Shown here: piece after piece, positions 44,460 through 62,644 of the stretch
Layout of the letters: each line of letters starts with the position of its first letter
Position numbering within the stretch: the stretch's first letter is position 1
NCBI RefSeq assembly: GCF_003570715.1
Contig: NZ_QXXQ01000003.1
Location: 248,001 to 312,000, forward strand
Reading direction: 5' to 3'
Length of the DNA stretch: 64,000 nucleotides
Origin: Gemmobacter lutimaris
Lineage (GTDB): Bacteria > Pseudomonadota > Alphaproteobacteria > Rhodobacterales > Rhodobacteraceae
The notes under the pieces: model-generated
Databases searched by the model: none
Told to the model about the DNA's origin: nothing
What the model saw: only the letters and a program-made list of their open reading frames with translations
Position numbers and translations under genes: made by a program

Positions 44460-44610
44460 CTGACCGGATTCGTCCGGGCCCCCGCCCAGTCCTGAATGGC
44501 TAGCAGAATTGTGCGGAAAATGAAAGGGCGGCGGGGGCTTGCAGGCAGGCGGCGTTGCGCGCAAGTCTCGGTCATGGGCCGGTTTTCCGGCAGGCGGATG
44601 CGAGGGGCGG

Positions 44611-45564: not shown

Positions 45565-45567
45565 CGG

Positions 45568-46350
45568 CTACAGCAGGTTTTGCGCAGTGCCGCCTTTCCG
45601 GGCATTCCGAAGGGCCAGCGCCTTGCGCGCCTCGTCCGGCAACAGCTTGGCGCAGGCCCAGTAGCGTGGCACCAGCCGGCGCGGATCACCCAGCATGCGC
45701 CACGCCCATTCCATCGCCATGTTCTGCACCCAGTCGGGTGCCCGCACCTGCGTTCCGGCCAGAAAATCCAGCCCCGCGCCGATGCTTGCAAAACCGACAT
45801 GCGGCGCCAGTTCGCGGCCGCGCGCGGCAAGGATTTCCTGCTTGGGTGCGCCAAGGGCAAGGAAGCACAGCCCGATCCCGGCGGTTTCCATCATGCGCAG
45901 ATAGCGTGTGGCTTCCTCTCCGGCTGGATCAAAGCCCATGGGCGGGGCGATGGTCAGGGCGACGTCCAGGCCGCGCACCTCAAGCTTCAGGGCTTCGGCC
46001 GCGGCGTCGAGCGCCTCCTGCGTAGAGCCGAGGAGCGCGATTTTCACCCCGGCCTGCGCGGCCAGCCGTGCCAGCGGCGCCACCATGGCAGACCCCGGCA
46101 CCAGATCGACCGGCCGCCGCGCCAGCCGCGACAGCCAGACAATCGGGTTGCCATCCGCCACGACGAAATCCTGGGCGGCATAGGCAGCGCGGAAGGCCGG
46201 GTCACTGCGCAGCTTCACCAGATGGTCAAGGTTGATCGTGGCAAGTGCAAAGCCCTGACGCAGCGCCAGCCGTTCGCGCACGGCGGACAAAAGGCCCGCC
46301 GCATGCGGCACGTTCACGGCAAGGGTGGTATCGGCTATGGTGAATTGCAC
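45568..46350 (-). CDS. WecB/TagA/CpsF-family glycosyltransferase (GT26)
   Basis: A 260-aa transferase. The core ATINLDHLVKLRSDPAFRAAYAAQDFVVADGNPIVWLSRL, ALLGSTQEALDAAAE, LCFLALGAPKQEILAA and GFASIGAGLDFLAG is the WecG/TagA/CpsF fingerprint; GAPKQE is the donor-site block. It adds UDP-ManNAcA or a related N-acetylmannosaminuronic or glucuronic-type sugar to a lipid-linked acceptor. It starts with GTG and a weak SD. Opposite in direction to the neighbouring GT2 genes. Confidence 0.9.
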   Translation of the reverse strand: MQFTIADTTLAVNVPHAAGLLSAVRERLALRQGFALATINLDHLVKLRSDPAFRAAYAAQDFVVADGNPIVWLSRLARRPVDLVPGSAMVAPLARLAAQAGVKIALLGSTQEALDAAAEALKLEVRGLDVALTIAPPMGFDPAGEEATRYLRMMETAGIGLCFLALGAPKQEILAARGRELAPHVGFASIGAGLDFLAGTQVRAPDWVQNMAMEWAWRMLGDPRRLVPRYWACAKLLPDEARKALALRNARKGGTAQNLL

Positions 46351-46522
46351 GGCATCTACTCGATAAAGGGAGGCCTAGCGGTATCACGGAATCGCCGGGC
46401 ATTCACCCCGGCGCGGGGGCCGGAGTCGTGGCTGTGTCAAAAACACTCTGTTTCCCGCAAACCGCAGGCTGGTGCCTGCATGCCTGTTGCCCGGACAGGG
46501 CACGCTCGCGTAGCGGTGAAAC

Positions 46523-47431
46523 ATGAGCATTGCTGCGCCCAGCAAACCCGCCGTGCAACACCGGCAGTCGATGGACCTTGCCCGGTTCGTCGCCGCCTTC
46601 GGGGTGGTGGCCGCGCATGCGCTGGCCTCGCCGCGCGACTGGGTGGGCCATCTTTCGCTTGGGCTTTTCCTGATCCTCACTGCCTTTCTGGCGATCCAGT
46701 CGGCGGAACGTGCGGGCGGCCGTTATCCGTGGATCGCGCGGGCACGGCGGCTGGTGCTGCCATGGCTGTTCTGGTCGGCGGTGTTCCGACTGCTGGACAT
46801 TCTGCTTTCTCATGATCCCGCGCGGTTCATCCCGCTGACCAATCCGTGGAGCCTGCTGATCGGTTCGACCATCCATCTGTGGTTTCTGCCGTTTGTCATG
46901 CTGGCCATGGCCTTGGTGCAGCCGGTGGCGCGGCTGGTGCGCAGCCCGGCCAGCCTGATGGCGGGGTCCGGCTTGATGCTTGCCGTGGGGCTGCCGTTGT
47001 TCTGGCTGCATGAATTCCTGCCGATGCCCGACCCGCTGCCGCAATGGGCCTTTGGCTTGCCGCTCTATGTCTATGGCCTGTTGCTGGCGCCTGCACACCG
47101 GCTGAACCGGCCGCTGCTGCCGCTGGCGGCGATGGCGCTGCTGACGGCGGCAGGCTGGGCGATGGCGGGCAAGCCCTGGGCCTTGACCGCGTTGATCGCT
47201 GCATTGGCGTTCGAACTGTTCTGGCGGCTGCCCCTGCGCCACCCGCTGCTGCCCGCGCTGGGCCGCGTGGCTTTTGGCATTTACCTGATGCATCCGTTCT
47301 TCATGCTGGTGGCTTACAAGATTTTCGGCCCGGATGCCGGGTTCTGGACCAAGACGTTCACCGCCTTCCTGCTGTCCTGGGCTGCGACGGTCATCGCGCT
47401 GCGGCTGCCCGTCATCCGCCGGTTGGTCTGA
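46523..47431 (+). CDS. acyltransferase-3 family membrane protein
   Basis: A 302-aa protein with about ten hydrophobic helices. MDLARFVAAFGVVAAHALA holds the conserved (M/V)DxxR...H block of acyltransferase family 3 (OafA/ExoZ-like), and HPFFMLVAYKIF and VAFGIYLMHPFF form the late family block. It probably O-acetylates the polysaccharide at the periplasmic face. No SGNH tail. The upstream 172-bp gap with a GCCGGG...CCCGGC inverted repeat contains its promoter region. Confidence 0.87.
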   Translation: MSIAAPSKPAVQHRQSMDLARFVAAFGVVAAHALASPRDWVGHLSLGLFLILTAFLAIQSAERAGGRYPWIARARRLVLPWLFWSAVFRLLDILLSHDPARFIPLTNPWSLLIGSTIHLWFLPFVMLAMALVQPVARLVRSPASLMAGSGLMLAVGLPLFWLHEFLPMPDPLPQWAFGLPLYVYGLLLAPAHRLNRPLLPLAAMALLTAAGWAMAGKPWALTALIAALAFELFWRLPLRHPLLPALGRVAFGIYLMHPFFMLVAYKIFGPDAGFWTKTFTAFLLSWAATVIALRLPVIRRLV

Positions 47432-47510
47432 GAGGCCGTGCGATGCTAGACTCGCGCGGCCACAACCACGGAGCCGGCCCCTGATCACCCCGAACCCCCT
47501 TGCATGGCTG

Positions 47511-48896
47511 ATGCTGTTGATCTGGCCCTTGGTCATGGTGGTGCTGTGGCGTCGCCTGCCGCCGGATCTGGCGCTGATCTGGTCGATCCTTGGGGCATAC
47601 CTGATCCTGCCGCCGGTCATCGCGCTGGACCTGCCGGTGGTGCCCGATCTTGGCAAGGACAGCATTCCGCCGCTGGTCGCACTTGCGATGGTGCTGTTCG
47701 CGCGCAAGGAAACCATTCCGGTCCTGCCAGAGTCCTGGGTCGGCCGGGCGCTTCTGGTGGTCTTCGTCCTGTCGCCCTTCGCCACGGTGCTGACCAATGC
47801 CGAGCCGATGCCGAAAGGCCGGTTCGAGGTCATACAGGGCATGCGCATCTATGACAGTGTGGCGGCAGTAACCAATCAGGCCATTGCGGTGCTGCCCTAT
47901 TTCCTTGCCCGCCGCTACCTTTCCAGCCCCGAGTCCATGCGGGCGATCCTTGTCGCACTGGTGGCGGGGGGGCTGGCCTATTCGGTGCCCATGCTGATCG
48001 AGACGCGGCTGTCACCGCAGATGAACGTCTGGGTCTATGGCTATTTCCAGCACGATTTCTTTCAGACGATCCGCTTTGGCGGTTACCGGCCCGTTGTATT
48101 CCTGCCGCACGGGCTGTGGGTTGCCTTCTTTGCGATGATGGCGGCGATGAGTGCGGTGACACTGTTCCGCGTCGGGCCTTCCGACCGACGGCCGATGCAG
48201 TTCGGGGTGATGCTGTATCTGTCGGCGGTGCTGGTACTGTGCAAAAGCGCGGGGCCGATGGTCTATGCGTTCGGGCTTGGTCCGCTCATCGTGCTGGCGC
48301 CGCGGCACTGGCAGGTGATCGTTGCGGCGGCGCTGGCGGGCATGGTCATCACCTATCCGCTGCTGCGCGGGGCGCATCTGGTTCCGCTGGACCAGATCAT
48401 CGCGCTGGCCGAGCGGCTGTCGCCGGACCGGGCCTATTCCTTCGCCTTCCGCGTCGGCAATGAAGAGACGTTGCTGGACCGCGCCGCGCTGAAGCCGTGG
48501 TTCGGCTGGGGCGGGTACGGCCGCAACCTGATCTATGATCCGATGACGGGCGCGGGCACATCGATCGCCGATGGCGCATGGATCATCACGCTGGGGATCT
48601 ATGGCTGGCTGGGCTATCTGGCGCAGTTTGGCCTGCTTGTGTTGCCGCTGCTGCTGATGGGGCGCGAGATGCTGTCACGGCGCGCGCCGGTCTCGCCCTG
48701 GGTTGCGGCGGTCTGCCTGTTGGTGGCAGCCAATCTGGTGGACATGCTGCCCAATGCGACGCTGGTGCCGCTGACATGGATGATGGCGGGGGCCGTGCTG
48801 GGCCATGCCGAGGGGCTGGCCCGTGCCCGGCGCGCGGCCCGCGCGGCAGCGATCCGGGCGCGCTGGCATCCGAAAGCCGGACGGACGGTGTTGTGA
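47511..48896 (+). CDS. O-antigen ligase/Wzy-like membrane protein
   Basis: A 461-aa polytopic protein with about twelve hydrophobic segments. The soluble loop around RLSPDRAYSFAFRVGNEETLLDRAALKPWFGWGGYGRNL resembles the periplasmic loop of WaaL/Wzy proteins. It is the likely repeat-unit polymerase. The first ATG in frame (47511) lacks an SD, while a CTG at 47481 is preceded by GGAG at the right distance and would add ten residues LITPNPLAWL; initiation there is plausible. The stop overlaps the next GT2 start (TGATG). Confidence 0.8.
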   Translation: MLLIWPLVMVVLWRRLPPDLALIWSILGAYLILPPVIALDLPVVPDLGKDSIPPLVALAMVLFARKETIPVLPESWVGRALLVVFVLSPFATVLTNAEPMPKGRFEVIQGMRIYDSVAAVTNQAIAVLPYFLARRYLSSPESMRAILVALVAGGLAYSVPMLIETRLSPQMNVWVYGYFQHDFFQTIRFGGYRPVVFLPHGLWVAFFAMMAAMSAVTLFRVGPSDRRPMQFGVMLYLSAVLVLCKSAGPMVYAFGLGPLIVLAPRHWQVIVAAALAGMVITYPLLRGAHLVPLDQIIALAERLSPDRAYSFAFRVGNEETLLDRAALKPWFGWGGYGRNLIYDPMTGAGTSIADGAWIITLGIYGWLGYLAQFGLLVLPLLLMGREMLSRRAPVSPWVAAVCLLVAANLVDMLPNATLVPLTWMMAGAVLGHAEGLARARRAARAAAIRARWHPKAGRTVL

Positions 48897-49885
48897 TGCA
48901 GGTCGATCTGGGGGTCTTCGCGCATAACGAGGCGGCAGGCATCGCGACCATGGTCGCGCGGCTCACCGCGCAGACGGTGCCGGGGCTCGACCTGCGCATC
49001 CTCGTTCTGGCCAATGGTTGCACCGACGATACGGCCGCCCTTGCCCGTGCGGCCGGGGCCGAGGTCGCAGACCTGCCGGAGGGCGGCAAGAGCCGGACGT
49101 GGAACCGTTTCGTCCATGACCTGTCACGCCCCGAGGCCAGGGTGCTGATCTTCGCGGACGCCGATATCCAGTTGCCCGATGCCGACGCGCTGGCGCGGTT
49201 GGTTGCGGCACTTCAGGCACGACCGGAGCTGCATGTGATGAACTCGCGCCCGGTGAAGGACATCGTGGCCGATCCGCGGGGCCTTGGCTGGCAGGACCGG
49301 CTGATCGCCATGGCGGGTGGCACGCTGGATGACTGGCAGACCGCGATCTGTGGCCAGCTTTACGCCATGCCCGCCACCTGCGCCCGCCTGCGCTGGCTGC
49401 CTGCCGGCTTGCCGGTGGAAGACGGCTTTCTGCGTGCCATGGTCCTGACTGACGATCTGACTGTGTCCGAGGATCTGCCGCGCATCGGTGGCGCCGATGT
49501 CTGGCACATCTATGAAAGCGAGCGCAGCATTGCGGGCCTGATCCGGCATCAGGTGCGCATCGTCATCGGTTCGGCCCTGAACATGGCGGCTTTCGATGCC
49601 CTGCGCGAGATGGCGCCCCCGGTTCGGAAGGCGACCCTGCAACTGGCTGCCCGCGATCAGGGTTGGTTGCGCCGAATTGCCCAAGCCCGGCTACCACGCT
49701 GGCCGGACGGATTCGTTCCCCTGCACTTTCTGGTGAAGCGCAGTCGTAACCTGCTGTGCAACCCGCGCCGCCTGCTGCGCCCGAAGGGCTTGCTGCTTCT
49801 GGTCGCAGGTTTCGGATTTGACCTGATCGTCTGGCTGATTGCGCAGATCCGCATGGCGCGGGGCACCGGCGCGGGCCATTGGTAG
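48896..49885 (+). CDS. glycosyltransferase family 2, membrane-anchored
   Basis: A 329-aa GT2 protein. VFAHNEAAGIATMVARL, VLANGCTDDTAALARA, VLIFADADIQLPDADAL (DAD as DxD) and PVEDGFLRAMVL (ED acidic motif) are canonical. The C-terminal GLLLLVAGFGFDLIVWLIAQI is a membrane anchor. It overlaps the Wzy-like stop codon by one base. It is the last gene of the Wzx/Wzy-type part of the locus before the polyketide synthase. Confidence 0.9.
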   Translation: MQVDLGVFAHNEAAGIATMVARLTAQTVPGLDLRILVLANGCTDDTAALARAAGAEVADLPEGGKSRTWNRFVHDLSRPEARVLIFADADIQLPDADALARLVAALQARPELHVMNSRPVKDIVADPRGLGWQDRLIAMAGGTLDDWQTAICGQLYAMPATCARLRWLPAGLPVEDGFLRAMVLTDDLTVSEDLPRIGGADVWHIYESERSIAGLIRHQVRIVIGSALNMAAFDALREMAPPVRKATLQLAARDQGWLRRIAQARLPRWPDGFVPLHFLVKRSRNLLCNPRRLLRPKGLLLLVAGFGFDLIVWLIAQIRMARGTGAGHW

Positions 49886-50073: not shown

Positions 50074-53000
50074 ATGTCTGAAAAGGGGATTGAGCAGCGC
50101 GGGATTTCCGAAACCGACATAGCAATTGTCGGGATGGCGGCGCATCTGCCCGGTGCGCCTTCGATAGAGGCCTATTGGCAGAACCTGCGGGACGGGATCG
50201 AAAGTATCCGCCATCTGACCGAGGCTGAATTGCTGACCAATGGCGAAACCCCGGCAAAGCTGCGCAACCCGAATTATGTGCCTGCCGCCGCGCCGCTGGA
50301 CGGCTTTGCCGATTTCGATGCTGACTTCTTCGGCTTCTCCCCGAAAGAGGCCGCGATCCTCGATCCGCAGCACCGCCAGTTCCTTGAAGTGGCGTGGGAG
50401 GCGATGGAAAACGCGGGCCATGTGCCCGAGGCGTTCCGCGGCGCCATCGGCGTCTATGCCGGTTGCGGCATGGGCAGCTATTTCTACTTCAACCTCTGCT
50501 CCAACCGGGATCTGGTCGATGGCACCGGCATGTTCCTGCTGCGCCATACCGGCAACGACAAGGATTTCCTGTCCACCCGCGTCAGCCATATCTTCGACCT
50601 CAAGGGGCCGAGCATCAACCTTCAGACCGCCTGTTCCACTTCGCTGGTGGCGGTGCATTATGCCTCGCAGGCGCTGCTGAACGGCGAATGTGACATGGCG
50701 CTGGCGGGCGGTGTGACCATCGAACTGCCGCAAGGCAGGGGCTATGTGTTCCACGAGGGCGAGATCCTGTCGCCCGACGGCCATTGCCACGCCTTCGACC
50801 ATCGCGCGCAGGGCACGGTTTTCGGCTCGGGTGCGGGTTGCGTGGTGCTGCGCCGCGCGGTCGATGCGATCCGCGATGGCGACCATATCTGGGCCATCGT
50901 GAAGGGCAGCGCAGTCAATAATGACGGCGCGGCGAAGGCGGGCTATCTGGCGCCCTCGGTCGAGGGGCAGGCGCGGTGCGTGGCCGAGGCGCAGGCGATC
51001 GCAGGCGTGACTTCGGATACGGTCGATTACATCGAATGCCACGGCACCGGCACCTATCTGGGGGACCCGATCGAGGTAGCGGCGCTGACACAAGGCTTTG
51101 CCGAAAGCGCGCAAAGCGTGGGCACCTGCCGCATCGGCAGCGTCAAGACCAACATCGGCCATCTGGATACTGCCGCCGGGGTGGCGAGCCTGATCAAGGT
51201 CGCGCTGAGCCTGCATCACCGCGAGATGCCGCCCTCGCTGGGCTATGAGGCGCCGAACCCGGCGATTGATTTCGAAACCTCGCCCTTTCGGGTGAATGAC
51301 CGGCTGACCGCGTGGGAGGGCAAGGGCCGCCCGCGTCGCGCCGGGGTCAACAGCCTTGGCGTTGGCGGCACCAATGCCCATGCCGTTCTGGAAGAGGCGC
51401 CGGTCCGTGAGGTGTCGGACGCCTCTGACTGGCCGTTCCAGCCCATCGTGATTTCCGCGAAATCGAAGGCCGCGCTGGATGCGCAGGCGGCGCGGCTGGC
51501 CGCGCATCTGCGGGCGCACCCCGAACAGCCGCTGGCTGATGTGGCCTTCACGCTGAAGGAAGGTCGCAGGGCCTTTGAAAAGCGCCGGGTTCTGGTGGCG
51601 GAAAACCACGCCGAGGCTGCCGACCTGCTGGAGGGCAAAGACCCGCGTCGGGTGTTCAACCATGACCATCTGGATGCCCCCGAGGTTGTTTTCATGTTTC
51701 CCGGCGGTGGCGCGCAATTCGCGGGCATGGGGCGCGATCTTTACGAAACGGAACCCGAGTTCCGCGACTGGATGGATCGTGGCCTTGCGGTGCTGCAACC
51801 GAAGCTCGATTATGACATCCGCGCCCTTTGGCTGCCCGAGCCGGGGGCAGAGGCGGAGGCGGATGAGCGACTGAAGCGGCCTTCGGTGCAGCTTCCCTTG
51901 ATCATGATTGTCGAATATGCGCTGGCGAAGCTTTACCAAAGCTGGGGCGTGCAGCCCGCCGCACTGATCGGGCATTCCATGGGCGAAAACACCGCCGCCT
52001 GTCTGGCGGGGGTGATGAGCTTCGAGGATTGCATCGGCCTCGTGCATCTGCGCGGGCAGTTGTTCGACACCGTGCCGCCGGGGGGGATGCTGTCGGTCCC
52101 GCTGGATGAGGCCGCGCTGCGCCCGCGCCTGACTGGCGATCTGGACATGGCCAGCGTGAATGCGCCGGGGCTTTGTGTTGTGTCCGGCCCGGATGCGGCA
52201 CTGGCGGCGCTGGCGGCCGAACTGGCGGCGGAAGAAGTGGAAACCCGCCGCATCCCCATCGACATCGCCGCGCATAGCCGGATGCTGGAGCCGATTCTTG
52301 ATCGCTTCGGCGCTTATCTGCGGTCGATCCCGCTGCATGCGCCGACGCTGCCGGTGATTTCGAACCGCACCGGGCTGCCCTTGACGGTGGCCGAGGCAAC
52401 AGACCCCGATTACTGGGTCCGCCATCTGCGCAACACGGTGCTGTTCCGGCAGGGGATGGAGTATCTGACGGCGACACCGGGCCGGGTCTATCTGGAAATG
52501 GGGCCGGGCCGCGCGCTGTCGTCGCTGGCCCAGGCCAATGGCGTGGCACCGGGGCAGGTGGTCGCGGCGCTGCGCCACCCCGAACAGCAGATGGCGGATG
52601 ACGCCTGGCATATCGCCAGCATCGCGCGGCTTTGGGCCTGTGGTGTGCCGGTGGATTGGGAGCCGGTCTGGGGCGGCGCGCGGCGCCTGCGCGTGCCGCT
52701 GCCGGGCTATGCCTTCCAGCGCAAGACCTATTTCATCGAACCGGCACAGCCGCAGGCGGCCGGGGTTGAGGAAACACCCGCGCGGATCGCGGATGTCGCG
52801 GGCTGGGGCTGGCGCCCGGTCTGGCGTGCCCGTGCCGCCGAGGAAGAGGACGAACCCGCAGCGCACAGCTGGCTGGTCTTCGCCGACGAGGCGGGACTCG
52901 CCGTGCCGGTCGTGACGCGGTTGCGTGCCGAGGGGCATCGCGTGACCGTGGTGCGCAGCGGCGATGCTTTCGCCCGTGATGGCGAGGGGAATTATCTCCT

Positions 53001-56000
53001 CAATCCCGAACGCGGGCGCGAAGGCTATGATGCGCTGATCCGCGATCTGGTGGCGCATGGCCATGCCCCCGATCGCATCGCGCATTTCTGGCTGGTGACG
53101 GAGGGCGAAAGCTACCGACCCGGATCAAGCTTTTTCCATCGCAATATCGAACAGGGTTTCTATGCCCTGATGTTCCTCGGGCAGGCGATTGCCGGGGAAA
53201 ATCTGCCCCAGCCCGTTCACATGACCGTGGTGACCACCGGCGCGGTGCAGGTGGCCGGGGAAGGGCTGCCTTATCCCGAGAAGGCCGCGATTGCCGGGCC
53301 GGTGCGGGTGATCCCGCGCGAACTGCCGGGAATGACCTGCGCGACGCTGGATTTGCGCTTGCCCACCCCCGCGCGCGGCTGGTGGGCAAAGCCGGATGCG
53401 GCGGCGATGGAGCATCTTGCGGCCGAGGTCTGCGAGGATTTGCTTGCCCCGCCGGGTAACCGCATGGCGGCGCTGCGCGATGGCAAGCGGCTGGAGCGCG
53501 GGCTGAGGAAACTGCCGCTGCCAGAGGCGGGGCTGGACCTGCCGGAAGGTGCGCCGGTGCTGATCACCGGCGGTTTCGGCGGTATCGGGCTGACGCTGGC
53601 CGAAAAGCTGGCGGTTGCAGCGAAGGCAAAGATCCTGCTGATCGCGCGGCGCGATCTGCCGCCGCGCGCCGGTTGGGCTGCGCATCTGTCGCGGCATGGT
53701 GCTGCCGATCCGCTGTCGCGGCGCATCCTCGCGGTGCAGCGGCTGGAAAGCCTTGGCGCCGAGGTGCGGGTGGCCCGTGCCGATGTCTGCAACACCGAGG
53801 AGATGCGCGCGGCGATCACGGAGGCGGAGGCCGAATTCGGCCGCATCCGCGCGGTGATCCATGCGGCGGGTGTGGTGGATGACGGCCCGCTGCTGACCAA
53901 GAGCCCGGCGGCGGTGGAGGAAGTCTTTGCGCCGAAGCTGCACGGCACGCAGGTGCTGGATACGCTGTTCCCTGACGGGTCGCTGGATCTGCTGGTGCTG
54001 TTTTCTTCGACCTCCACCATCACCGGCCCGGCGGGGCAGGTGGATTATGTGGCGGCGAACGAATACCTGAACGCCTTTGCGCAGGCACGGGCCGGAGGCA
54101 AGACGCGGGTTCTGGCGCTGAACTGGGGTATCTGGTCCGATGTCGGCATGGCGGCAGAGGCGTTGGCCGACCGCACTGGCAACCGCCCACCCGCGCCGAA
54201 ACTGCCGGTCAGCGGGCGCCCCCTGCTGGCCGAGAGCACCTTTGACCGCGAGGGCGCGCGACTTTACGAGACCGATCTGAATACCGAAAGCTGGCTGCTG
54301 GATGGCCACCGCACGACGGCCGGTCAGGCCCTGGTGCCCGGCACCGGCTATCTGGAAATCGCGGCCGAGGCGGCGGCGGAAGAAGGCTGGACTGCCTTTG
54401 AATTGCGCGATCTGATGTTCTTCCGCGCGCTTGAGGTGGCGGATGACGCGTCGCGCACGATGCGGTTGCGACTGGCAGCCACGGACGAGGGTTTCGCCTT
54501 CGAGGTCCGTTCCGCGCAGGATTTCCGCGGGCGGCAGGGCTTCACGCTGAATGCGCAGGGCCGGTTGATGCCGCTGCGGGGAACGGCGGCCACGGTCGAT
54601 CTGGCGGCGATTGCCGCGCGGATGGGGCCGGCGGTGGAGGATGCGAAGGGCATCCGCTCGCCGCAAGAAGACCACCTTGCCTTCGGCCCGCGCTGGCGTG
54701 TGCTGCATCGCATGGCGCTGGGGCAGGGCGAGGGGCTGGCGGTGCTGACCCTGCCGCTGGCCGCGCAGGTTGATCTGACAAATGGTTGGCTGATGCATCC
54801 CGCGCTGATGGATCTGGCGACCGGCTGGGCCATAGGTCTGATCGAAGGCTATCGTCCCGATCACCTCTGGGTGCCGGTGTCCTATGGCCGTGTGCGGGTC
54901 TGGGGGGCGATCCCGGCGCGGCTCCACAGTTGGGTGCGCAATGCCGCCGCCAACCGGGGCGAAGGGCCGGTGGCGGTTTTCGACATCACGCTGGCGGACG
55001 ACACCGGCCGCGTGCTGGCCGAGATCGAGGGCTTCACCATCCGTCGGCTGGACGCGGGTTTTACCGCCCCGCCGCTGGCCGAACGCGATCTGACCTTCGA
55101 CGCCGATCCCGCAGGCGCCCGCCCGGCCTCGCCGCAAGAGGAACGGCTGCTGCACAACCTGTCGCAGGGCATCCGGGCCGAAGAGGGCGCCGATGCCTTC
55201 CTGCGTGCCGTGGCAACCGGGCAGTCGCAGGTCATCGTCTCGTCGCTGGACCTGCCCGCGCTGGTGCGGCAGGCCGACCGGGTCGAGACTGCCGCACGAC
55301 CGGAGGGGCAGAGCTTTGCCCGCCCGGATCTGGACAGCGACTACATCGAGCCACGCAATGACATCGAACGCACGCTGGTCGGCTTCTGGCAGGATCTGCT
55401 GGGGGTCGGGCAGGTCGGGGTCGAGGATGATTTCTTCGCGCTGGGCGGGCACAGCCTCATTGCGGTGCGCCTGTTCGCCATGGTGAAAAAAGCGTTCCGG
55501 GTGGATTTCCCGATCTCTGTGCTTTTCGAGGCGCCGACCATCGCCGCCTGTGCCCGACTGATCGAGAAACGCATTGGTCCGCAGGACAGCGTGGCCGAGA
55601 AGGCGCCGCAGCCGACCCGTCGCTTCACGCATCTGGTGGCGATGCACGAAGGCGCGGGCGGGCCGAAGCAGCCGTTTTTCCTTGTCGCGGGTATGTTCGG
55701 CAATGTGCTGAACCTGCGCCATCTGGCACAGCTTCTGGGGGCAGACCGTCCGTTCTATGGCCTGCAAGCACGCGGGCTGTTCGGCGAGGACGAGCCACAC
55801 CGCACCCTGCCCGAGGCCGCCCGCGACTATATCGCCGAACTGCGGCAGGTGCAGCCGCAGGGGCCTTACCTGCTGGGTGGTTTCTCGGGTGGCGGTCTGA
55901 CCGCATGGGAAATGGCGCGACAACTGGAGGCCGAGGGTGAAGCGGTTTCGCTTCTGGTACTGCTCGATACGCCGCTGCCGTTGCGCCCGCCGCTGTCGGG

Positions 56001-56466
56001 CCGCGACAAGGCGCTGATCAAGCTGGCGGAAATGCAGGCGCGCGGGCCGGGTTATCTGCTGGACTGGGCGAAAGCGCGCTGGGCGTGGGAGGTGCAGAAG
56101 CGTCGCCCCAAAGCCGTGACGGAAACCTCAAACCAGTTCCACAATGCCGAGATCGAGGCCGCCTTCCGGGCCGCCCTGCCGCAATATGCGCTGCCGCTTC
56201 GCAAAGGGCCGACCGCCCTGTTCCGTCCGCCGCTGGACCGCAAGTGGAAGGTGTCCAACGGTCAGTGGGTCAGCGCCGCGAAGGAATATGTGTTCGCAGA
56301 CAATGACCTGACCCGTTTCGCCCCGGCGCTGGTGGTGCAGGAGGTTCCGGGCGATCACGACAGCATGGTGCTGGAGCCGAATGTCCGCGTGCTGGCGGCG
56401 CGTCTGCGCGAGGTCATTGCAGCCGCCGAAACCCCGGCACCGCATCTGCGCGAGGCGGCGGAGTGA
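50074..56466 (+). CDS. type I polyketide synthase, KS-AT-KR-DH-ACP-TE
   Basis: A 2130-aa modular enzyme carrying one extension module and a release domain. KS (about 14-440) has Cys187 in TACSTSL, His323 in ECHGTGTYLGDP and His363 in NIGHLDTAAG. AT (about 540-840) has Ser635 in GHSMGENTA; the specificity stretch is IAAHS (731-735), neither clearly malonyl HAFH nor methylmalonyl YASH. KR has GGFGGIG (1166-1172) and catalytic Tyr1325 in DYVAANEY. DH (about 1390-1680) has His1412 in DGHRTTAGQALVPG, one residue longer than HxxxGxxxxP, and Asp1580 in HPALMD. ACP Ser1794 is in GGHSL. TE has Ser1938 in GGFSGGG. KR before DH departs from the usual DH-KR order. Confidence 0.92.
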   Translation: MSEKGIEQRGISETDIAIVGMAAHLPGAPSIEAYWQNLRDGIESIRHLTEAELLTNGETPAKLRNPNYVPAAAPLDGFADFDADFFGFSPKEAAILDPQHRQFLEVAWEAMENAGHVPEAFRGAIGVYAGCGMGSYFYFNLCSNRDLVDGTGMFLLRHTGNDKDFLSTRVSHIFDLKGPSINLQTACSTSLVAVHYASQALLNGECDMALAGGVTIELPQGRGYVFHEGEILSPDGHCHAFDHRAQGTVFGSGAGCVVLRRAVDAIRDGDHIWAIVKGSAVNNDGAAKAGYLAPSVEGQARCVAEAQAIAGVTSDTVDYIECHGTGTYLGDPIEVAALTQGFAESAQSVGTCRIGSVKTNIGHLDTAAGVASLIKVALSLHHREMPPSLGYEAPNPAIDFETSPFRVNDRLTAWEGKGRPRRAGVNSLGVGGTNAHAVLEEAPVREVSDASDWPFQPIVISAKSKAALDAQAARLAAHLRAHPEQPLADVAFTLKEGRRAFEKRRVLVAENHAEAADLLEGKDPRRVFNHDHLDAPEVVFMFPGGGAQFAGMGRDLYETEPEFRDWMDRGLAVLQPKLDYDIRALWLPEPGAEAEADERLKRPSVQLPLIMIVEYALAKLYQSWGVQPAALIGHSMGENTAACLAGVMSFEDCIGLVHLRGQLFDTVPPGGMLSVPLDEAALRPRLTGDLDMASVNAPGLCVVSGPDAALAALAAELAAEEVETRRIPIDIAAHSRMLEPILDRFGAYLRSIPLHAPTLPVISNRTGLPLTVAEATDPDYWVRHLRNTVLFRQGMEYLTATPGRVYLEMGPGRALSSLAQANGVAPGQVVAALRHPEQQMADDAWHIASIARLWACGVPVDWEPVWGGARRLRVPLPGYAFQRKTYFIEPAQPQAAGVEETPARIADVAGWGWRPVWRARAAEEEDEPAAHSWLVFADEAGLAVPVVTRLRAEGHRVTVVRSGDAFARDGEGNYLLNPERGREGYDALIRDLVAHGHAPDRIAHFWLVTEGESYRPGSSFFHRNIEQGFYALMFLGQAIAGENLPQPVHMTVVTTGAVQVAGEGLPYPEKAAIAGPVRVIPRELPGMTCATLDLRLPTPARGWWAKPDAAAMEHLAAEVCEDLLAPPGNRMAALRDGKRLERGLRKLPLPEAGLDLPEGAPVLITGGFGGIGLTLAEKLAVAAKAKILLIARRDLPPRAGWAAHLSRHGAADPLSRRILAVQRLESLGAEVRVARADVCNTEEMRAAITEAEAEFGRIRAVIHAAGVVDDGPLLTKSPAAVEEVFAPKLHGTQVLDTLFPDGSLDLLVLFSSTSTITGPAGQVDYVAANEYLNAFAQARAGGKTRVLALNWGIWSDVGMAAEALADRTGNRPPAPKLPVSGRPLLAESTFDREGARLYETDLNTESWLLDGHRTTAGQALVPGTGYLEIAAEAAAEEGWTAFELRDLMFFRALEVADDASRTMRLRLAATDEGFAFEVRSAQDFRGRQGFTLNAQGRLMPLRGTAATVDLAAIAARMGPAVEDAKGIRSPQEDHLAFGPRWRVLHRMALGQGEGLAVLTLPLAAQVDLTNGWLMHPALMDLATGWAIGLIEGYRPDHLWVPVSYGRVRVWGAIPARLHSWVRNAAANRGEGPVAVFDITLADDTGRVLAEIEGFTIRRLDAGFTAPPLAERDLTFDADPAGARPASPQEERLLHNLSQGIRAEEGADAFLRAVATGQSQVIVSSLDLPALVRQADRVETAARPEGQSFARPDLDSDYIEPRNDIERTLVGFWQDLLGVGQVGVEDDFFALGGHSLIAVRLFAMVKKAFRVDFPISVLFEAPTIAACARLIEKRIGPQDSVAEKAPQPTRRFTHLVAMHEGAGGPKQPFFLVAGMFGNVLNLRHLAQLLGADRPFYGLQARGLFGEDEPHRTLPEAARDYIAELRQVQPQGPYLLGGFSGGGLTAWEMARQLEAEGEAVSLLVLLDTPLPLRPPLSGRDKALIKLAEMQARGPGYLLDWAKARWAWEVQKRRPKAVTETSNQFHNAEIEAAFRAALPQYALPLRKGPTALFRPPLDRKWKVSNGQWVSAAKEYVFADNDLTRFAPALVVQEVPGDHDSMVLEPNVRVLAARLREVIAAAETPAPHLREAAE

Positions 56467-56470: not shown

Positions 56471-57472
56471 ATGCCCCGGCTTCTGACTGTCATCCTCAAC
56501 TGGCGGACGCCTGACATGACGCTGCGCGCCTGCGAGGCGACGCTGCGCGAAATGGCCGGGCTCGAAGGCGCCATCACCATTGTTGACAATGCGTCGGGCG
56601 ATGGTTCGTTTGAGGCGATGCAGGCAGGCGTCACCGCGCGCGGCTGGGACAGTGGCGCGGTGCCGGTGCGGGTGCTGCAATCGGGCTGCAACGGCGGCTT
56701 CGGTGCGGGCAACAACTTTGGCATTCGTGCGGGGCTGCCGGGCGGCGCGCGGCCCGATTACGTCTATATCCTGAACTCGGATGCTTTCCCCGATCCCGGT
56801 GCCATTCGCGCGCTGCTGGATCATCTTGAGACCCATCCCGCCACAGGCTTTGCGGGCAGCTATATCCATGGTGATGATGGCGCGCCGCATCGCACGGCCT
56901 TCCGCTTTCCGACCCTCTGGTCGGAACTTGAAGGCGCCGCGCGCTTCGGCCCGATCTCGCGCCTGTTGCGACGCCATATCGTTGCACAGCCGATCCCGCA
57001 GGTGAGCACGCGGGTCGATTGGCTGGCGGGGGCCAGCCTGATGATGCGGCAAGATGTGCTGGACCGGATCGGGTTGTTCGACGAAACTTTCTTCCTTTAC
57101 TTTGAAGAAACAGACCTGTGCCTGCGCGCGGCCCGTGCGGGGTGGCCCACGGATTATGTGCGCGGCTCCGAGGTCACACATATCGGCTCGGTCTCGACCG
57201 GCATGAAGACCTGGGCGCGCATTCCGCAATTCTGGCTGGACAGCCGTCGCCATTATTTTACCAAGAACCACGGGCATATCTATGCCGCTGCCGCGACGCT
57301 GGCTCATGTGGCGGGCGGGGTTCTCTGGCGTCTGCGCCTTCTGGTGCAGCGCAAGGACCGGGGCGATCCGCCGCATTTCCTGCGCGATCTGATCGTGCAT
57401 TCCTTGCGACGGGTCGGGCGGCGCGATCCGGGGCAACCTCGGATCGGTAAGGATGTGCGCCCCGCGGAATAG
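56471..57472 (+). CDS. glycosyltransferase family 2 within the PKS/NRPS operon
   Basis: A 333-aa GT2 transferase (rhamnosyltransferase-like group). LLTVILNWRTPDMTLRAC, VDNASGDGSFEAM, GFGAGNNFGIR and LNSDAFPDPGAIRAL, then VDWLAGASLMMRQDVLDRIGLFDETFFLYFEETDLCLRA form the complete pattern; the acidic ETDLCLRA block follows DETFFLYFEE. It starts 5 bp after the PKS stop and is followed within 40 bp by the NRPS gene, so it is part of the same transcript. It may glycosylate the polyketide-peptide product or extend the glycan. Confidence 0.9.
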   Translation: MPRLLTVILNWRTPDMTLRACEATLREMAGLEGAITIVDNASGDGSFEAMQAGVTARGWDSGAVPVRVLQSGCNGGFGAGNNFGIRAGLPGGARPDYVYILNSDAFPDPGAIRALLDHLETHPATGFAGSYIHGDDGAPHRTAFRFPTLWSELEGAARFGPISRLLRRHIVAQPIPQVSTRVDWLAGASLMMRQDVLDRIGLFDETFFLYFEETDLCLRAARAGWPTDYVRGSEVTHIGSVSTGMKTWARIPQFWLDSRRHYFTKNHGHIYAAAATLAHVAGGVLWRLRLLVQRKDRGDPPHFLRDLIVHSLRRVGRRDPGQPRIGKDVRPAE

Positions 57473-57510: not shown

Positions 57511-60500
57511 ATGAACCCGGTTTCCTGTTACCTGATTGGCAATGAAAGCCTGACACGCGAATGCGGTGCGATGTGGCTGGCGCGCGGTCATGCCATCGCG
57601 GCGCTTATCACCCGCAATGCGGATGTCGCCGCCTGGGGCGTGGGGCAGGGGCTGACGGTGATCGCGCAGGAACCGGGGTGGGAGGCCGCGCTGCCCGGCA
57701 ATGTGGACTGGCTCTTGTCGGTCGCCAACCTTTCGCTGGTGCCCGATGCCGCCTTGCAATGCGCGGCGAAGGGCGGCGTGAACTTCCACGACGGGCCGTT
57801 GCCGCGTCATGCCGGGCTGAACGCCCCCATCTGGGCCATTCTGGGTGGCGAGGCGGAACATGGCATCACTTGGCATCGCATCACCGATGGTGTGGACGAA
57901 GGCGCTATTCTGGTGCAGCGCCGTTTTGCCATCGCTGCGGCCGACACCGCATTGACGCTGAACACCCGCTGCTTCGAGGCAGCTTTGGACAGCTTCCCGG
58001 AACTGATGGCGGCGCTGGAGGCCGATGCGCCGGGCGTGGCGCAGGATTTCACGCAGCGCAGCCTGCATCTGCGGGCGGATCGCCCGGCAGCGGCAGGGCG
58101 GATCGATTTCACCCAAAGCGCCGATCAGGTGGCCGCCTTGGTGCGGGCGCTGGACCATGGCAGCTACTGGAATCCGCTGACCACGGCAAAGCTGTGGGAT
58201 GGGCGGCGTTACGTCGTGGCAGGCGGGGCCGAAGTGGTGCCGGGCGTCGGTGTGCCGGGGCAGGTGCTGGCGGCATCGGAAGACGCGATAACGGTGGCTT
58301 GCGGCACAGGCGCGGTGCGGCTGTCGCGGCTGACCTGCCAGAAGGGCTTTCCGGTCTCGGGTCTCAGCCTGCCGAACCCGCTGGAGTCTGCCACCCCGGC
58401 GGAGGCCGAGGCGCTGACCCGCGCGCTGGCCGGGGCGGTGCCGAAGGAACTGGCGCATCGCAGGGCGCTGCTGACGCTCGACCCCACCGAGGTGCCGGGG
58501 GCCACCGCCGCTACGGGACCGGCGCTTTGGCGATCCGTGCCGCTGTCCCTGTCGTCACTGGCATTGGCCGCCCTCGGAGCGGTGCGGCTATCTGGCAAGC
58601 CGGTGGCCGATCTGGCCTATGGCGCGGCCCATGTGACCGAGGGGATCCTGTCGGACTGGGTGCCGCTGCGGGTGGCGGCCGAGGGCAGCCTGCCCGAGGC
58701 CGTCGCCCGCGTCGCGGCGGATTTGCAGGCGGCGTCCGCGCATCCGGCCTTTGCGCTCGATCTGCTGGCTCGTGAGCGGTGGCTGTTCGGGCTGGCCCCG
58801 CCCGCCTTTGGCATCGGCCTTGCGCCGGTGCCGGGCACGGTGGTCACGCTTTCCCCCGACGCACTGCATTATGACGCGAGCCGCCTGAGCGTGGAACAGG
58901 CGGAGGCGCTGGCCGCCCGCCTGACAACCTTTGCCGCTGCCGCGCAGGGCGGGGCGCGGGTGGAAAGTCTGCCGGTTCTGACTGAAGCGGAGCGCGAGAT
59001 GGCACTGGTCGCCCCGAACCGCACGGTGAAGGCCTACGACCCCTCGCAATGCGTGCATCAGGCCTTTGAGGCGCAGGTGGCGCGTTCCCCTGATGCCGTC
59101 GCGGTGGTCTTCGAGGGCGAAAGCCTGACCTATGCCCAACTGAACGCCCGCGCCAATCGCGCCGCGCATGTGCTGACCGACATGGGGGTCGTGCCCGGCA
59201 CGCTGGTCGGCCTGCATTGCCGCCGCTCGCTTGATCTGCTGGTGGGCGCCCTGGCGATTCTCAAGGCCGGTGGGGCCTATGTGCCGATGGACCCGGCCTA
59301 TCCGGCCGAGCGCACAGCGCTGTTCATCGAAGACAGCGCCTGCCCGGTGATCGTGACGCAAGCGGCGCTGGCCGGGGCCTTGCCCGTTGGTCCGGCGACG
59401 CTGTGCCTTGATACCGACGCCCGGCTGGCCACGACACCCGGGAGCAATCCGCACAGCGGCGTCACCTCCGCCGATCTGGCCTATATGATCTATACCTCCG
59501 GCTCAACCGGACGCCCCAAGGGGGTGATGGTCGAACATCGCAATGTCGCCAATTTCTTCGCCGGCATGGATGACCGCATCGACCACACGACAGGGGCGGT
59601 CTGGCTGGCCGTCACTTCGTTGTCCTTCGACATCTCGGTGCTGGAACTGTTCTGGACGCTGGCGCGCGGGTTCAAGCTGGTGCTGACCAGCGATGAAAAC
59701 CGGGCTCTGGTGTCGAACGGGCGGATCGGGTCGGCCAAGGGGATGGAGTTCTCGCTTTATTACTGGGGCAATGACGACGGCGCCGGGCCGAAGAAATACG
59801 AGTTGCTGCTGGAGGGCGCGAAATTCGCCGACAGCCACGGCTTCTGCGCGGTCTGGACGCCAGAGCGGCATTTTCACGCCTTTGGCGGCCCCTACCCGAA
59901 TCCGGCGGTGACCGGCGCGGCGGTGGCGGCGGTGACGCGGAATATCGGCGTTCGCTCCGGCTCGGTCGTTTTGCCCTTGCATCACCCCGCGCGGGTGGCC
60001 GAAGATTGGGCGGTGATCGACAATTTGACAAACGGGCGGGCCGCTTTGGCCGTCGCCTCGGGTTGGCAGCCGGACGATTTTGTCCTGCGCCCCGAAAACA
60101 CTCCGCCGAATAACCGCGCCGCGATGTTCGAGGGGATTGAGCAGGTTCGCCGTCTGTGGCGGGGCGAGGCCGTGGATTTCCCGACGAAGACCGGAACCTT
60201 CGGCGTGGTGACGCAGCCGCGCCCGGTGTCGAAGGAATTGCCGGTCTGGATCACCACCGCCGGCAACCCCGCGACCTGGCGCGAGGCAGGCGAGATCGGT
60301 GCCAATGTGCTGACCCATCTGCTTGGGCAAAGCATCGACGAGGTCGCCGACAAGATCCGCATCTATCACGACGCGCTGCGCAAGGCAGGCCATGATCCGG
60401 CGGATTTCAAGGTGACGCTGATGCTGCACACCTATGTCTGCCGCGACCGTGATCAGGCGCGGCGGGGGGCGGAAAAGCCGATGAAGGATTACCTCGCCTC

Positions 60501-62025
60501 CGCCGTGGGCCTGGTGAAGCAATATGCCTGGGCCTTCCCGGCCTTCAAGAAACCGCAGGGCATCGAAAATCCGCAGGACATTGACCTGCGCAGCCTCTCG
60601 GACGAGGAGAATGAGGCGATCCTCGATTTTGCCTTCCACCGCTATTTCGAGGATTCGGGCCTGTTCGGCACGGTCGAGGATGCGCTGGACCGGGTCGAAA
60701 GCCTGAAACGCATCGGCGTGACCGAGGTGGCCTGTCTGATCGACTATGGCATTGCGCCCGAGGCGGTGATGGAGGGGCTCTATCCGCTGGCCGAGGTGCT
60801 GCGCCGCGCCAATGCGGGCGGGGAGCCTGCGGCAGACGATTTCTCGATTGCCGCGCAGATCCTGCGCCACAAGGTGACGCATCTGCAATGCACACCCTCG
60901 ATGGCGCGGATGATCCTGATGAATGCCGAGGCGCAGATGGCGCTGGGGCAGGTGAAGACCCTGATGCTGGGCGGTGAGGCGCTGCCGGGCGCTTTCGTCC
61001 GCGATCTGCGCAAGGTGACCGGGGCGCGTATCCTCAACATGTATGGGCCGACCGAAACGACGATCTGGTCCACGGTCGAGGAAGCGGGCGATGGCGAAGG
61101 CGTGGTGAACATCGGCACCCCCATTGCCAATACACAGGTCTATGTGCTGGACGACCGGCAGCAGCCGGTGCCCCCCGGCGTGGCGGGCGAGTTGTGGATT
61201 GGCGGCGATGGCGTGACGCGCGGCTACTGGCTGCGTGAAGACTTGACGGCGGAACGCTTCCTGCCCGATCCGTTCGGGGCGGGCGGCCGGATGTATCGCA
61301 CCGGCGATCTGGTGCGGCTGCGCGGGGATGGCAAGCTCGACTACCTCGGTCGGGCCGATTTCCAGGTGAAGCTGCGCGGCTACCGGATCGAACTGGGCGA
61401 GATCGAAAGCCGGATGGAGGCGCTGCCGGGCGTCACGCAGGCGGTGGTTCTGGCGCGCGAGGATCAGCCGGGCGACCTGCGGCTGGTGGCCTATTACACC
61501 GGCACGGCGCAGGAGGCTGCGCTGCGGGCAGCGCTGGCTGACAGCCTGCCCGAACATATGGTGCCCGCGCATTTCCTGCGGCTGGAGGTCTTCCCGCTGA
61601 CCCCCAACCGCAAGGTGGACCGCAAGGCGCTGCCCGCGCCGCAGGCGCAGGTGGCCGTTGTGATGCACGAGGCGCCGCAGACGGGCCTTCAGGCGCAGAT
61701 CGCCGAGGTCTGGCAGCGTGTGCTGGGCGTGCCCAAGGTGGGGGCGAAGGACAATTTCTTTGCGCTGGGCGGGCATTCGCTTCTGGCGGTGCAGGCCCAC
61801 CGCGAATTGCGTGACGGGTTGGGGCTGTCAAAGCTGTCGATCACCGACATTTTCCGCTTCCCCGTGCTGTCGGCGCTGGCCGCGCATCTGGGGGACGCCG
61901 CGAAACCCGTGGTCACCCCGGCTGCCAATACAACCGCGCCACCGCCGGTGACGGAAGACCGGGCGGCCACGCGGGCCGACATGATGGCGCGGCGGCGTGC
62001 GCTGCGGACGGGGCGCGATGGCTGA
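57511..62025 (+). CDS. NRPS: formyltransferase - adenylation domain with inserted luciferase-like monooxygenase - PCP
   Basis: A 1504-aa synthetase. Residues 1 to about 275 form a methionyl-tRNA-formyltransferase-like domain: NFHDGPLPRHAG with Asn91 and His93, and GVDEGAIL with Asp129, the Fmt triad at the same 38-residue spacing as E. coli Fmt. Residues about 290-490 show no known domain and no HHxxxDG condensation motif. The adenylation domain begins near 510 (LTYAQLN 539, TSGSTG 662-667, FDIS 706-709), is interrupted at about 745-1100 by a luciferase-like FMN monooxygenase (MEFSLYYWG start, LPLHHPARVAEDWAVID), then resumes with YGPTE 1178-1182 and NRKVDRK. PCP Ser1423 is in GGHSLLAV. Pocket residues D707 I708 L711 Q1126 M1152 G1154 M1177 I1185 W1186 K1368 match the glycine code. 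Confidence 0.93.
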   Translation: MNPVSCYLIGNESLTRECGAMWLARGHAIAALITRNADVAAWGVGQGLTVIAQEPGWEAALPGNVDWLLSVANLSLVPDAALQCAAKGGVNFHDGPLPRHAGLNAPIWAILGGEAEHGITWHRITDGVDEGAILVQRRFAIAAADTALTLNTRCFEAALDSFPELMAALEADAPGVAQDFTQRSLHLRADRPAAAGRIDFTQSADQVAALVRALDHGSYWNPLTTAKLWDGRRYVVAGGAEVVPGVGVPGQVLAASEDAITVACGTGAVRLSRLTCQKGFPVSGLSLPNPLESATPAEAEALTRALAGAVPKELAHRRALLTLDPTEVPGATAATGPALWRSVPLSLSSLALAALGAVRLSGKPVADLAYGAAHVTEGILSDWVPLRVAAEGSLPEAVARVAADLQAASAHPAFALDLLARERWLFGLAPPAFGIGLAPVPGTVVTLSPDALHYDASRLSVEQAEALAARLTTFAAAAQGGARVESLPVLTEAEREMALVAPNRTVKAYDPSQCVHQAFEAQVARSPDAVAVVFEGESLTYAQLNARANRAAHVLTDMGVVPGTLVGLHCRRSLDLLVGALAILKAGGAYVPMDPAYPAERTALFIEDSACPVIVTQAALAGALPVGPATLCLDTDARLATTPGSNPHSGVTSADLAYMIYTSGSTGRPKGVMVEHRNVANFFAGMDDRIDHTTGAVWLAVTSLSFDISVLELFWTLARGFKLVLTSDENRALVSNGRIGSAKGMEFSLYYWGNDDGAGPKKYELLLEGAKFADSHGFCAVWTPERHFHAFGGPYPNPAVTGAAVAAVTRNIGVRSGSVVLPLHHPARVAEDWAVIDNLTNGRAALAVASGWQPDDFVLRPENTPPNNRAAMFEGIEQVRRLWRGEAVDFPTKTGTFGVVTQPRPVSKELPVWITTAGNPATWREAGEIGANVLTHLLGQSIDEVADKIRIYHDALRKAGHDPADFKVTLMLHTYVCRDRDQARRGAEKPMKDYLASAVGLVKQYAWAFPAFKKPQGIENPQDIDLRSLSDEENEAILDFAFHRYFEDSGLFGTVEDALDRVESLKRIGVTEVACLIDYGIAPEAVMEGLYPLAEVLRRANAGGEPAADDFSIAAQILRHKVTHLQCTPSMARMILMNAEAQMALGQVKTLMLGGEALPGAFVRDLRKVTGARILNMYGPTETTIWSTVEEAGDGEGVVNIGTPIANTQVYVLDDRQQPVPPGVAGELWIGGDGVTRGYWLREDLTAERFLPDPFGAGGRMYRTGDLVRLRGDGKLDYLGRADFQVKLRGYRIELGEIESRMEALPGVTQAVVLAREDQPGDLRLVAYYTGTAQEAALRAALADSLPEHMVPAHFLRLEVFPLTPNRKVDRKALPAPQAQVAVVMHEAPQTGLQAQIAEVWQRVLGVPKVGAKDNFFALGGHSLLAVQAHRELRDGLGLSKLSITDIFRFPVLSALAAHLGDAAKPVVTPAANTTAPPPVTEDRAATRADMMARRRALRTGRDG

Positions 62026-62644
62026 TCTCAAGGCGTTGTCTATTGCGGCACGGGATCTTCTGCCCGCAGCCGTCGGGGTTGGTGTGAGCGATCCGCAGGG
62101 CGATCATCCGCCCTTTCCGGGCGAGCAGGCGGGCGGCCTGCCGCAGCGGCTGGCCGAGTTTCGCGCCGGTCGTGTGGCCGCGCGCGAGGCGATGGCCGCG
62201 ATTGGTCTGCCGCCCTTGCCGGTGCCAATGGGCGAGGACCGCGCGCCGGTCTGGCCCAGGGGGCTGATCGGCTCGATCAGTCATTCGGCGCAGCTTTGCC
62301 TTGCCGCCGTGGCCGTGCCTTCGCCTCTGCGGGGGCTTGGTGTCGATCTGGAACCGACGCTGCCGCTGGAAGACGAGTTGCGCGCGGCAGTCCTGCGCCC
62401 CGAGGAAGATCACTACGATCCGCACAGGGCCAAGCTGGTCTTTGCGGCGAAGGAAGCCGCCTACAAGGCGCAATATGGCCTCAGCCGCACGCTGTTCGAT
62501 TTTCATGTCCTGTCGGTCGATCTGCAACCGGGCAGCTTTACGGCTACCTTTCAGGAAGAGATCACCCCGTTCCGCAGCGGTCATGTGTTGCGTGGCAGAT
62601 GGGCCGAGGTGGCTGGCCATTTCCTGTGCGCGGTAACGCTCTGA
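62018..62644 (+). CDS. 4'-phosphopantetheinyl transferase (Sfp/EntD type)
   Basis: A 208-aa enzyme that loads the phosphopantetheine arm from CoA onto carrier proteins. GSISHS (85-90) and GLGVDLEPT with Asp110 and Glu112 bind the metal, and KLVFAAKEAAYKAQYG supplies the WxxKEAxxK block (Lys145, Glu146, Lys150), here with FAAKEAAYK. It resembles the EntD branch of Sfp-type enzymes. Its start lies inside the NRPS 3' end (8-bp overlap), so expression is coupled, and it is the obvious activator of the PCP Ser1423 and PKS ACP Ser1794. Confidence 0.95.
   Translation: MADLKALSIAARDLLPAAVGVGVSDPQGDHPPFPGEQAGGLPQRLAEFRAGRVAAREAMAAIGLPPLPVPMGEDRAPVWPRGLIGSISHSAQLCLAAVAVPSPLRGLGVDLEPTLPLEDELRAAVLRPEEDHYDPHRAKLVFAAKEAAYKAQYGLSRTLFDFHVLSVDLQPGSFTATFQEEITPFRSGHVLRGRWAEVAGHFLCAVTL

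Follow-up and report, generated by a model that had tools for sequence, protein, structure and literature searches.

Flavin monooxygenases within adenylation (A) domains have been described for natural-product assembly lines. The myxothiazol and melithiazol monooxygenase (MOx) is reported to lie between motifs a4 and a5 and to hydroxylate the glycyl C-alpha, after which the carbinolamide breaks and a glyoxylyl thioester remains; according to the same source, solanimycin B keeps the hydroxyglycine (PMC10204066). A MOx within glycine A domains was also reported for 38 crz-like pathways (PMC11342130). The specificity code DILQLGMIWK is given as common to four glycine domains carrying a MOX, and every MOX module in that study was located in a glycine domain (PMC12283262). 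Formyltransferases are reported at the start of chains: in linear gramicidin an F domain adds the formyl group to the amino acid on its carrier, and for CongA, found via OzmO, polyketide initiation by means of a formyltransferase, a glycine A domain and a PCP has been proposed (PMC4504003). Alpha-hydroxylation of acyl thioesters was proposed for PuwE and for the palmerolide LLM (PMC4219810, PMC8739492), and alpha-hydroxycarboxylate formation for FbnE, which is compared here by description (PMC12971057); epoxidation and Baeyer-Villiger-type reactions are also named for other LLMs (PMC8739492). An antiSMASH survey of Roseibaca and relatives reported, for 18 of 37 species, a hybrid of NRPS-like/T1PKS type whose MIBiG match was low or absent; its NRPS gene of 4,527 nt and T1PKS gene of 6,333 nt are about 1 kb apart (PMC10584327). 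In roseobacters, two uncharacterised NRPS-like genes resembling luciferase-like monooxygenases have been mentioned (PMC9769649).

The window analysed here is a stretch of 64,000 nucleotides from Gemmobacter lutimaris (assembly GCF_003570715.1, contig NZ_QXXQ01000003.1, positions 248,001 to 312,000 of the forward strand). It carries four consecutive genes in the order polyketide synthase (PKS), family 2 glycosyltransferase (GT2), synthetase and 4'-phosphopantetheinyl transferase (PPTase), with polysaccharide-type genes upstream. The features are:

39238..49885, polysaccharide-type genes: flippase, sugar transferase, Wzz-like protein, P-loop ATPase, WecG-like and family 2 glycosyltransferases, acyltransferase (Pfam)
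47418-48896, protein without a Pfam family, within the polysaccharide-type genes above
50074..56466, + strand, one-module PKS, KS-AT-KR-DH-ACP-TE (Pfam; active-site motifs conserved)
56471..57472, + strand, family 2 glycosyltransferase between PKS and synthetase (PF13641/PF00535)
57511..62025, + strand, synthetase FT-linker-A(MOx)-PCP, 1504 aa (Pfam, NCBIfam)
57511..58044, + strand, formyltransferase (FT) N domain, residues 1-178, with N91/H93/D129 (PF00551, best stretch 65-164 counted from the TTG)
58093..58359, + strand, formyltransferase C-terminal domain (PF02911, 4.3e-08)
58408..58980, + strand, linker, possible remnant of a condensation C-lobe (predicted fold; profile match to McyB 8hlk)
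59065..59703, + strand, A domain, first part, motifs through A4 (FDISV, 706-710; PF00501, Foldseek, VIA-align)
59749..60798, + strand, inserted FMN luciferase-like monooxygenase, TIGR04020 (472 bits; Foldseek 6ket)
60835..61614, + strand, A domain, second part, A5 onward and C-terminal subdomain with Lys1368 (TIGR01733, PF13193, 1amu_B)
61696..61890, + strand, peptidyl carrier protein (PCP), GGHSLLAVQ (PF00550)
61963..62022, + strand, basic C-terminal tail with a DAMxRRRxMR-type motif, possible docking peptide (motif; putative function)
62018..62644, + strand, 4'-phosphopantetheinyl transferase (PF17837, PF01648)

The synthetase is read from an ATG at 57511; an in-frame TTG lies 3 bases earlier at 57508, and some residue numbers are counted from it. 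Pfam finds, in order, Formyl_trans_N, Formyl_trans_C, AMP-binding in two pieces with Bac_luciferase between them, AMP-binding_C and PP-binding, and a scan of the whole protein gave no Condensation domain. A preliminary description, made from the sequence alone, had proposed a formyltransferase at the front, an A domain split around a monooxygenase at about 745-1100 and the absence of a condensation domain. The profile searches recovered this layout, and the motif positions given there (FDISV at 706-710, YGPTE from 1178) are exact; what that account lacked is a linker of about 190 residues between FT and A domain. The MupA/Atu3671 luciferase-like monooxygenase model TIGR04020 (NCBIfam) matches residues 748-1097 (counted from the TTG), between the A motifs, with 472.2 bits against a cut-off of 244.45 and is covered at positions 1-340 of 341. 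The closest PDB entry by sequence is linear gramicidin synthase LgrA for the whole synthetase and PuwE (6ket) for the monooxygenase.

A structure model of residues 481-1470, built from 35 sequences (mean pLDDT 79, pTM 0.63), predicts the MOx as a loop insertion. The GrsA adenylation domain (1amu_B) aligns over 501 of 508 residues (Z 48.2, rmsd 2.4), spanning model residues 8 to 901, around an intact MOx fold, which over a stretch of 357 columns matches the PuwE Ox domain (6ket) with 47% identity and a TM of 0.89 to the target (Foldseek); together with the TIGR04020 match above cut-off, this agrees with the luciferase-like flavin fold first suspected. How the two predicted folds are placed relative to each other is less certain than either fold, because the pTM is modest. 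The MOx sits between A4 and A5 of an otherwise complete A domain, as in the myxothiazol type; the junctions fall after the strand following FDISVLELF and before the helix leading to THLQCTPS, and their position is shared by the alpha- and betaproteobacterial, Deinococcus and Streptomyces copies that were compared (the Nostoc row, L193, was left out).

In the genus, the oxygenase lies inside an open frame of 1513-1562 aa in 10 of 11 genomes, that of the window included, the single genome without such a frame being 87% complete. The core motifs of the A domain, the FT residues Asn91, His93 and Asp129 and the serine motif of the carrier are invariant in alignments of 35 sequences, and both halves of the A domain keep their core motifs. 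The open frames in the genus, and the occurrence of the A-MOx-A-PCP part across the order, show that the gene is neither broken nor a chance join, and the functional insertion that had been proposed is supported. Mean column conservation over 53 sequences (omitting the Paracoccus marcusii copy L038, whose frame is broken between FT and the rest) was 0.83 for the MOx, 0.74 and 0.76 for the two A parts, 0.67 for the FT N domain, 0.66 for the PCP and lowest, 0.47, for the linker; 162 of the 357 MOx columns were conserved at 98% or more. Being the most conserved domain of the synthetase, the MOx is under strong constraint. That the monooxygenase is only structural, in a module making plain formylglycyl starters, would fit an operon whose four genes include no flavin reductase gene (Pfam), so that FMNH2 must come from elsewhere; the conservation of the domain speaks against such a relic, which is regarded as extremely improbable.

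A model of residues 1-520 (pLDDT 93.7) superposes on the ArnA formyltransferase (2bln_A) at residues 4-291 with Z 26.8, 279 aligned residues and rmsd 2.5. N91, H93 and D129, which we take to be the catalytic residues, align with those of solved formyltransferases, and the domain belongs to that family. By sequence, sugar and tRNA formyltransferases score higher than the F domain of LgrA, and the aminoacyl substrate is therefore suggested by the fused architecture. The specificity code reads DILQMGMIWK (D707, I708, L711, Q1126, M1152, G1154, M1177, I1185, W1186, K1368), at ten positions that we presume to be located correctly by the GrsA numbering. The form DILQ[MLFV]GM[IV]WK was found in all 39 of the 53 sequences that could be parsed by a text pattern, which the other 14 failed; in the 35-row alignment 8 of the 10 columns show no variation and I1185 almost none, and 1152 is variable. 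The code is one residue off the published DILQLGMIWK (PMC12283262), and on this ground the A domain appears to be glycine-activating.

A single protein uniting a formyltransferase, a glycine A domain and a PCP, partnered by a PKS, corresponds to the CongA/OzmO type, and since a loading architecture of FT, glycine A domain and PCP there feeds a PKS (PMC4504003), the N-formylglycyl unit might cyclise to an oxazole starter as for conglobatin or oxazolomycin, the monooxygenase only adjusting the ring. This is judged very unlikely: a CongE/OzmP-like ATP-using enzyme is absent from the four operon genes (Pfam), and the CongA account, as far as its cited passages go, mentions no monooxygenase. Another use of the oxygenase would be N-oxygenation of formylglycine to a hydroxamate, giving a siderophore-like metal chelator. 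A standalone MupA/Atu3671 protein does occur in an Agrobacterium cluster whose annotation includes siderophore biosynthesis genes, but among the 14 window proteins scanned there is no siderophore gene, and the literature cases of MOx and TIGR04020 proteins are, in the cited sources, mostly proposed alpha-carbon hydroxylations (PMC10204066, PMC4219810, PMC8739492), which makes a chelator highly improbable. A genome of the same genus (G001, L016) has, besides the fused copy, a second TIGR04020 match above cut-off, in an open frame of 431 aa.

The linker is poorly conserved and has a confident predicted fold (pLDDT mostly above 90). Pfam gave nothing on the window's own linker, nothing on those of three out of four relatives and only sub-threshold matches on the fourth. 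A 49-row profile of the linker matched the C-A linker of McyB (8hlk) at E 2.6e-05, and two further chains weakly, probably by chance; the linker is possibly the leftover of a condensation C-lobe. The tail motif occurs in a loose form in 48 of 53 sequences, preceded by a variable linker, and this basic tail is possibly a docking peptide for the PKS.

In the PKS, the motifs of all six domains are conserved in 53 sequences, including the three TE residues, and presumably have the roles usual for such domains. The AT motif IAAHS is, as we understand it, a departure from the textbook malonyl motif, and the extender is uncertain for this reason. Over 53 loci (49 genomes and 4 plasmids) homologues were found for KS in 53, FT in 53, GT2 in 52 and PPTase in 48. 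The PKS is divergent from the synthetase in Aminobacter and Shinella; in Aminobacter (L037) it is reversed and the GT2 is absent. Among the best 80 of 558 matching stretches, FT and GT2 were each present in 77 and KS and PPTase each in 74, and the six stretches lacking KS are all from contigs that are short or cut. In Deinococcus, Methylobacterium and Aliiroseovarius the synthetase is immediately upstream of a PKS-type gene, which fits the prediction of co-linear transfer.

Some copies depart from this arrangement. In the Deinococcus actinosclerus plasmid the FT is in a separate ORF, followed by A(MOx)-PCP and then the PKS. A longer variant, next to nos genes, is seen in Aliiroseovarius M344 (L191 13001-26740), where an NRPS/PKS gene of 9.2 kb comes after FT-A(MOx)-PCP. 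In a Streptomyces, the A(MOx) gene (L192 8585-14373) has a flavin reductase gene immediately behind it, a likely supplier of FMNH2. In Hydrogenophaga pseudoflava (L108 15059-21064) the region downstream of the set holds an NRPS made up of AMP-binding, PCP, condensation and TE domains. In Paracoccus marcusii CP157 (L038 17980-22571) the annotation splits the gene into two ORFs that overlap (formyltransferase; monooxygenase protein), and in a second record of the species it is in many pieces; broken copies or sequencing errors are proposed.

In the order, the A-MOx-A-PCP part was found at E<=1e-100 in 125 of 292 genomes, the window's own included and one with an internal stop, and in 50 of 112 genera; PKS and FT were both present in all 40 checked of the 125, taken one each from 40 other genera. 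A query covering the FT as well matched, at E<=1e-150, 7 of 385 genomes in the class and 16 of 398 in the phylum, two of the 16 without the FT part, and the window's own family supplies 5 and 10 of these matches, respectively. These counts in genus, order, class and phylum make the gene set typical of Rhodobacterales and sporadic elsewhere. The matches listed (best 80 of 558) include Gemmobacter, Ruegeria, Shimia, Roseovarius, Salipiger, Thalassovita, Paracoccus and Hydrogenophaga, and the nearest relative among them is Gemmobacter caeni, at 96%. The synthetase also occurs in Betaproteobacteria and has a relative in Deinococcota. In a tree of the sequences the eight betaproteobacterial rows form one clade (100/100), nested in a 31-row group (98/98) that is otherwise Rhodobacterales, with Aminobacter and Shinella outside; the tree is midpoint-rooted, its deepest joins are long branches and a fork inside the 31-row group is left open. 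Transfer of the synthetase between Alpha- and Betaproteobacteria is likely on this evidence.

The neighbourhood was compared with five window proteins as queries, including the one without a Pfam family, at a match threshold of 1e-10, in one 20-kb cassette stretch from each of 40 other genera and in 20 control stretches, taken from 20 of these 40 genomes. At least one polysaccharide-cluster homologue was found in 38 of the 40 cassette stretches against 0 of 20 controls, a contrast to be read with queries that come from the window and so favour related clusters, and with arbitrary control coordinates. Without the query lacking a Pfam family the counts were 34 of 40 against 0 of 20, and two or more queries matched in 31 of 40. 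When 19.5 kb further upstream was read in 20 of the 40 genomes, 16 of the 20 stretches matched; the two stretches without a match (L053, L076) are outside these 20. Polysaccharide matches were seen in 52 of the best 80 of 558 stretches, which extend only slightly past the PKS start, and in 4 of 11 outlying loci, of which seven are betaproteobacterial and belong to the 80. None of the five queries matched in Deinococcus, Methylobacterium, Aliiroseovarius or four of the seven betaproteobacterial loci; the Deinococcus actinosclerus plasmid record annotates capsule and polysaccharide genes nearby. The contrast is thus large within the order, and the link is weaker outside it and partly annotation-based.

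An XrtD near the Ruegeria copy and an AAA ATPase gene just upstream of, and adjoining, the Hydrogenophaga pseudoflava PKS had prompted the idea of a link to exosortases. It was rejected: 39 of the 292 genomes have both against 47 expected (Fisher p 0.05, towards fewer), and the window's own genome has no exosortase at E<=1e-8.

The synthetase is considered, with somewhat better than even confidence, a starter module that loads glycine, N-formylates it, oxidises its C-alpha and passes the unit to the PKS, the product going to a polysaccharide pathway. Beyond the observed domain make-up, intact active-site motifs, A4-A5 insertion, glycine code, gene set and polysaccharide neighbourhood, we infer the order of the reactions, the C-alpha as the site, the transfer to the PKS and the fate of the product. 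The PPTase would arm the carrier protein, the A domain would activate glycine and load it onto the PCP, and the FT domain would N-formylate the carrier-bound glycine. The built-in FMN monooxygenase would then oxidise the glycyl C-alpha on the carrier, giving an N-formyl-alpha-hydroxyglycyl unit, or a glyoxylyl unit if the carbinolamide collapses. This unit would pass to the KS of the neighbouring PKS for one extension, followed by reduction by the KR, dehydration by the DH and release of a small acyl product by the TE. The product would most likely be used in the polysaccharide pathway of the same cluster; the neighbourhood and the GT2 suggest a glycan or a free acid as final acceptor. Oxidation of a formylated aminoacyl thioester on the carrier, as the preliminary description had suggested, is supported as likely chemistry by analogy with the described precedents.

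The alpha-hydroxy intermediate might instead collapse with release of formamide and leave glyoxylyl-S-PCP, the formyl group being a sacrificial N-acyl cap that mimics a peptide end. The insertion site is the same as in cleaving modules and the glycine code is near-identical; such modules act on N-acylated glycine, of which formyl is the smallest N-acyl group, the corallorazine paper gives the same glycine A(MOx) logic (PMC11342130), and PMC12283262 calls the MOX a Gly-backbone-cleaving domain. The formyl group would, however, be spent merely to be discarded, and solanimycin B is described as retaining hydroxyglycine although its FMO is also within an A domain (a8-a9; PMC10204066), so that cleavage is rated as rather unlikely here. 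For the starter module preferred here we lean slightly towards retention of the nitrogen, which is not assured because the myxothiazol/melithiazol enzyme, as described, ends the chain and cleaves it. Only tentatively, the set may serve exopolysaccharide decoration in about four in ten of the sampled genomes of the order: with the formyl group as a throw-away cap by which the chain-cutting monooxygenase yields a glyoxylyl (aldehyde) starter, or with N-formyl-hydroxyglycyl kept, PKS, TE and GT2 would put the reactive acyl group on a surface glycan.

The synthetase shares its F-A-PCP architecture with the initiation module of LgrA, which reportedly has no monooxygenase and no linker of such size, and feeds an NRPS condensation domain instead of a PKS. 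In MupA, the palmerolide LLM and FbnE the monooxygenase is said not to be inside an A domain. The PuwE Ox domain has the fold of the window MOx and lies, as described, between PKS and NRPS modules, outside any A domain (PMC4219810). CongA (conglobatin) and OzmO (oxazolomycin) resemble the window synthetase in that FT, glycine A domain and carrier start a polyketide, and differ in a candidate ATP-dependent cyclodehydratase (CongE/OzmP), in making free natural products and in that the source mentions no monooxygenase in the passages cited (PMC4504003). The myxothiazol, melithiazol and corallorazine-like systems are alike, by description and code, in having a flavin monooxygenase in a glycine A domain, and the preliminary description had rightly named myxothiazol as a precedent for the insertion, the MOx being placed at a4-a5 (PMC10204066). 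In myxothiazol and melithiazol the oxidation is described as cutting the finished chain off as an amide, whereas the window has a starter with an FT in front and a PKS partner; a synthetase without a condensation domain and with an FT at its N terminus does not have the make-up of a terminal chain-cleaving module. The gene sizes and spacing of the Roseibaca hybrid match those of the window, and it is probably the same gene set; the main text of that survey uses none of the words formyl, monooxygenase, adenylation, glycosyltransferase or exopolysaccharide (PMC10584327), and there and in PMC9769649 the set appears to be listed or mentioned and not dissected. The proposal of a previously undescribed system therefore has to be narrowed, since MOx domains in glycine A domains had been described (PMC10204066, PMC11342130, PMC12283262), the NCBIfam model TIGR04020 exists and a like-sized hybrid had been listed (PMC10584327). 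An account of an FT-A(MOx)-PCP starter with PKS, glycosyltransferase and polysaccharide setting, or of its product, was not found in the open-licence papers searched. As a single-copy, highly conserved gene present in 125 of the 292 genomes sampled from the order, the synthetase resembles a standard trait more than it does an occasional antibiotic, and if the acyl product goes onto a polysaccharide, glycans would be decorated by way of an assembly line. The four-gene set is small and convenient for reconstitution, and makes testable whether a myxothiazol-type chain-cutting unit was reused as a chain starter. A MOx within an A domain and starters with an FT were each known; new are the combination of both, the oxidising starter behind an FT, and the set of PKS, GT2, synthetase and PPTase.
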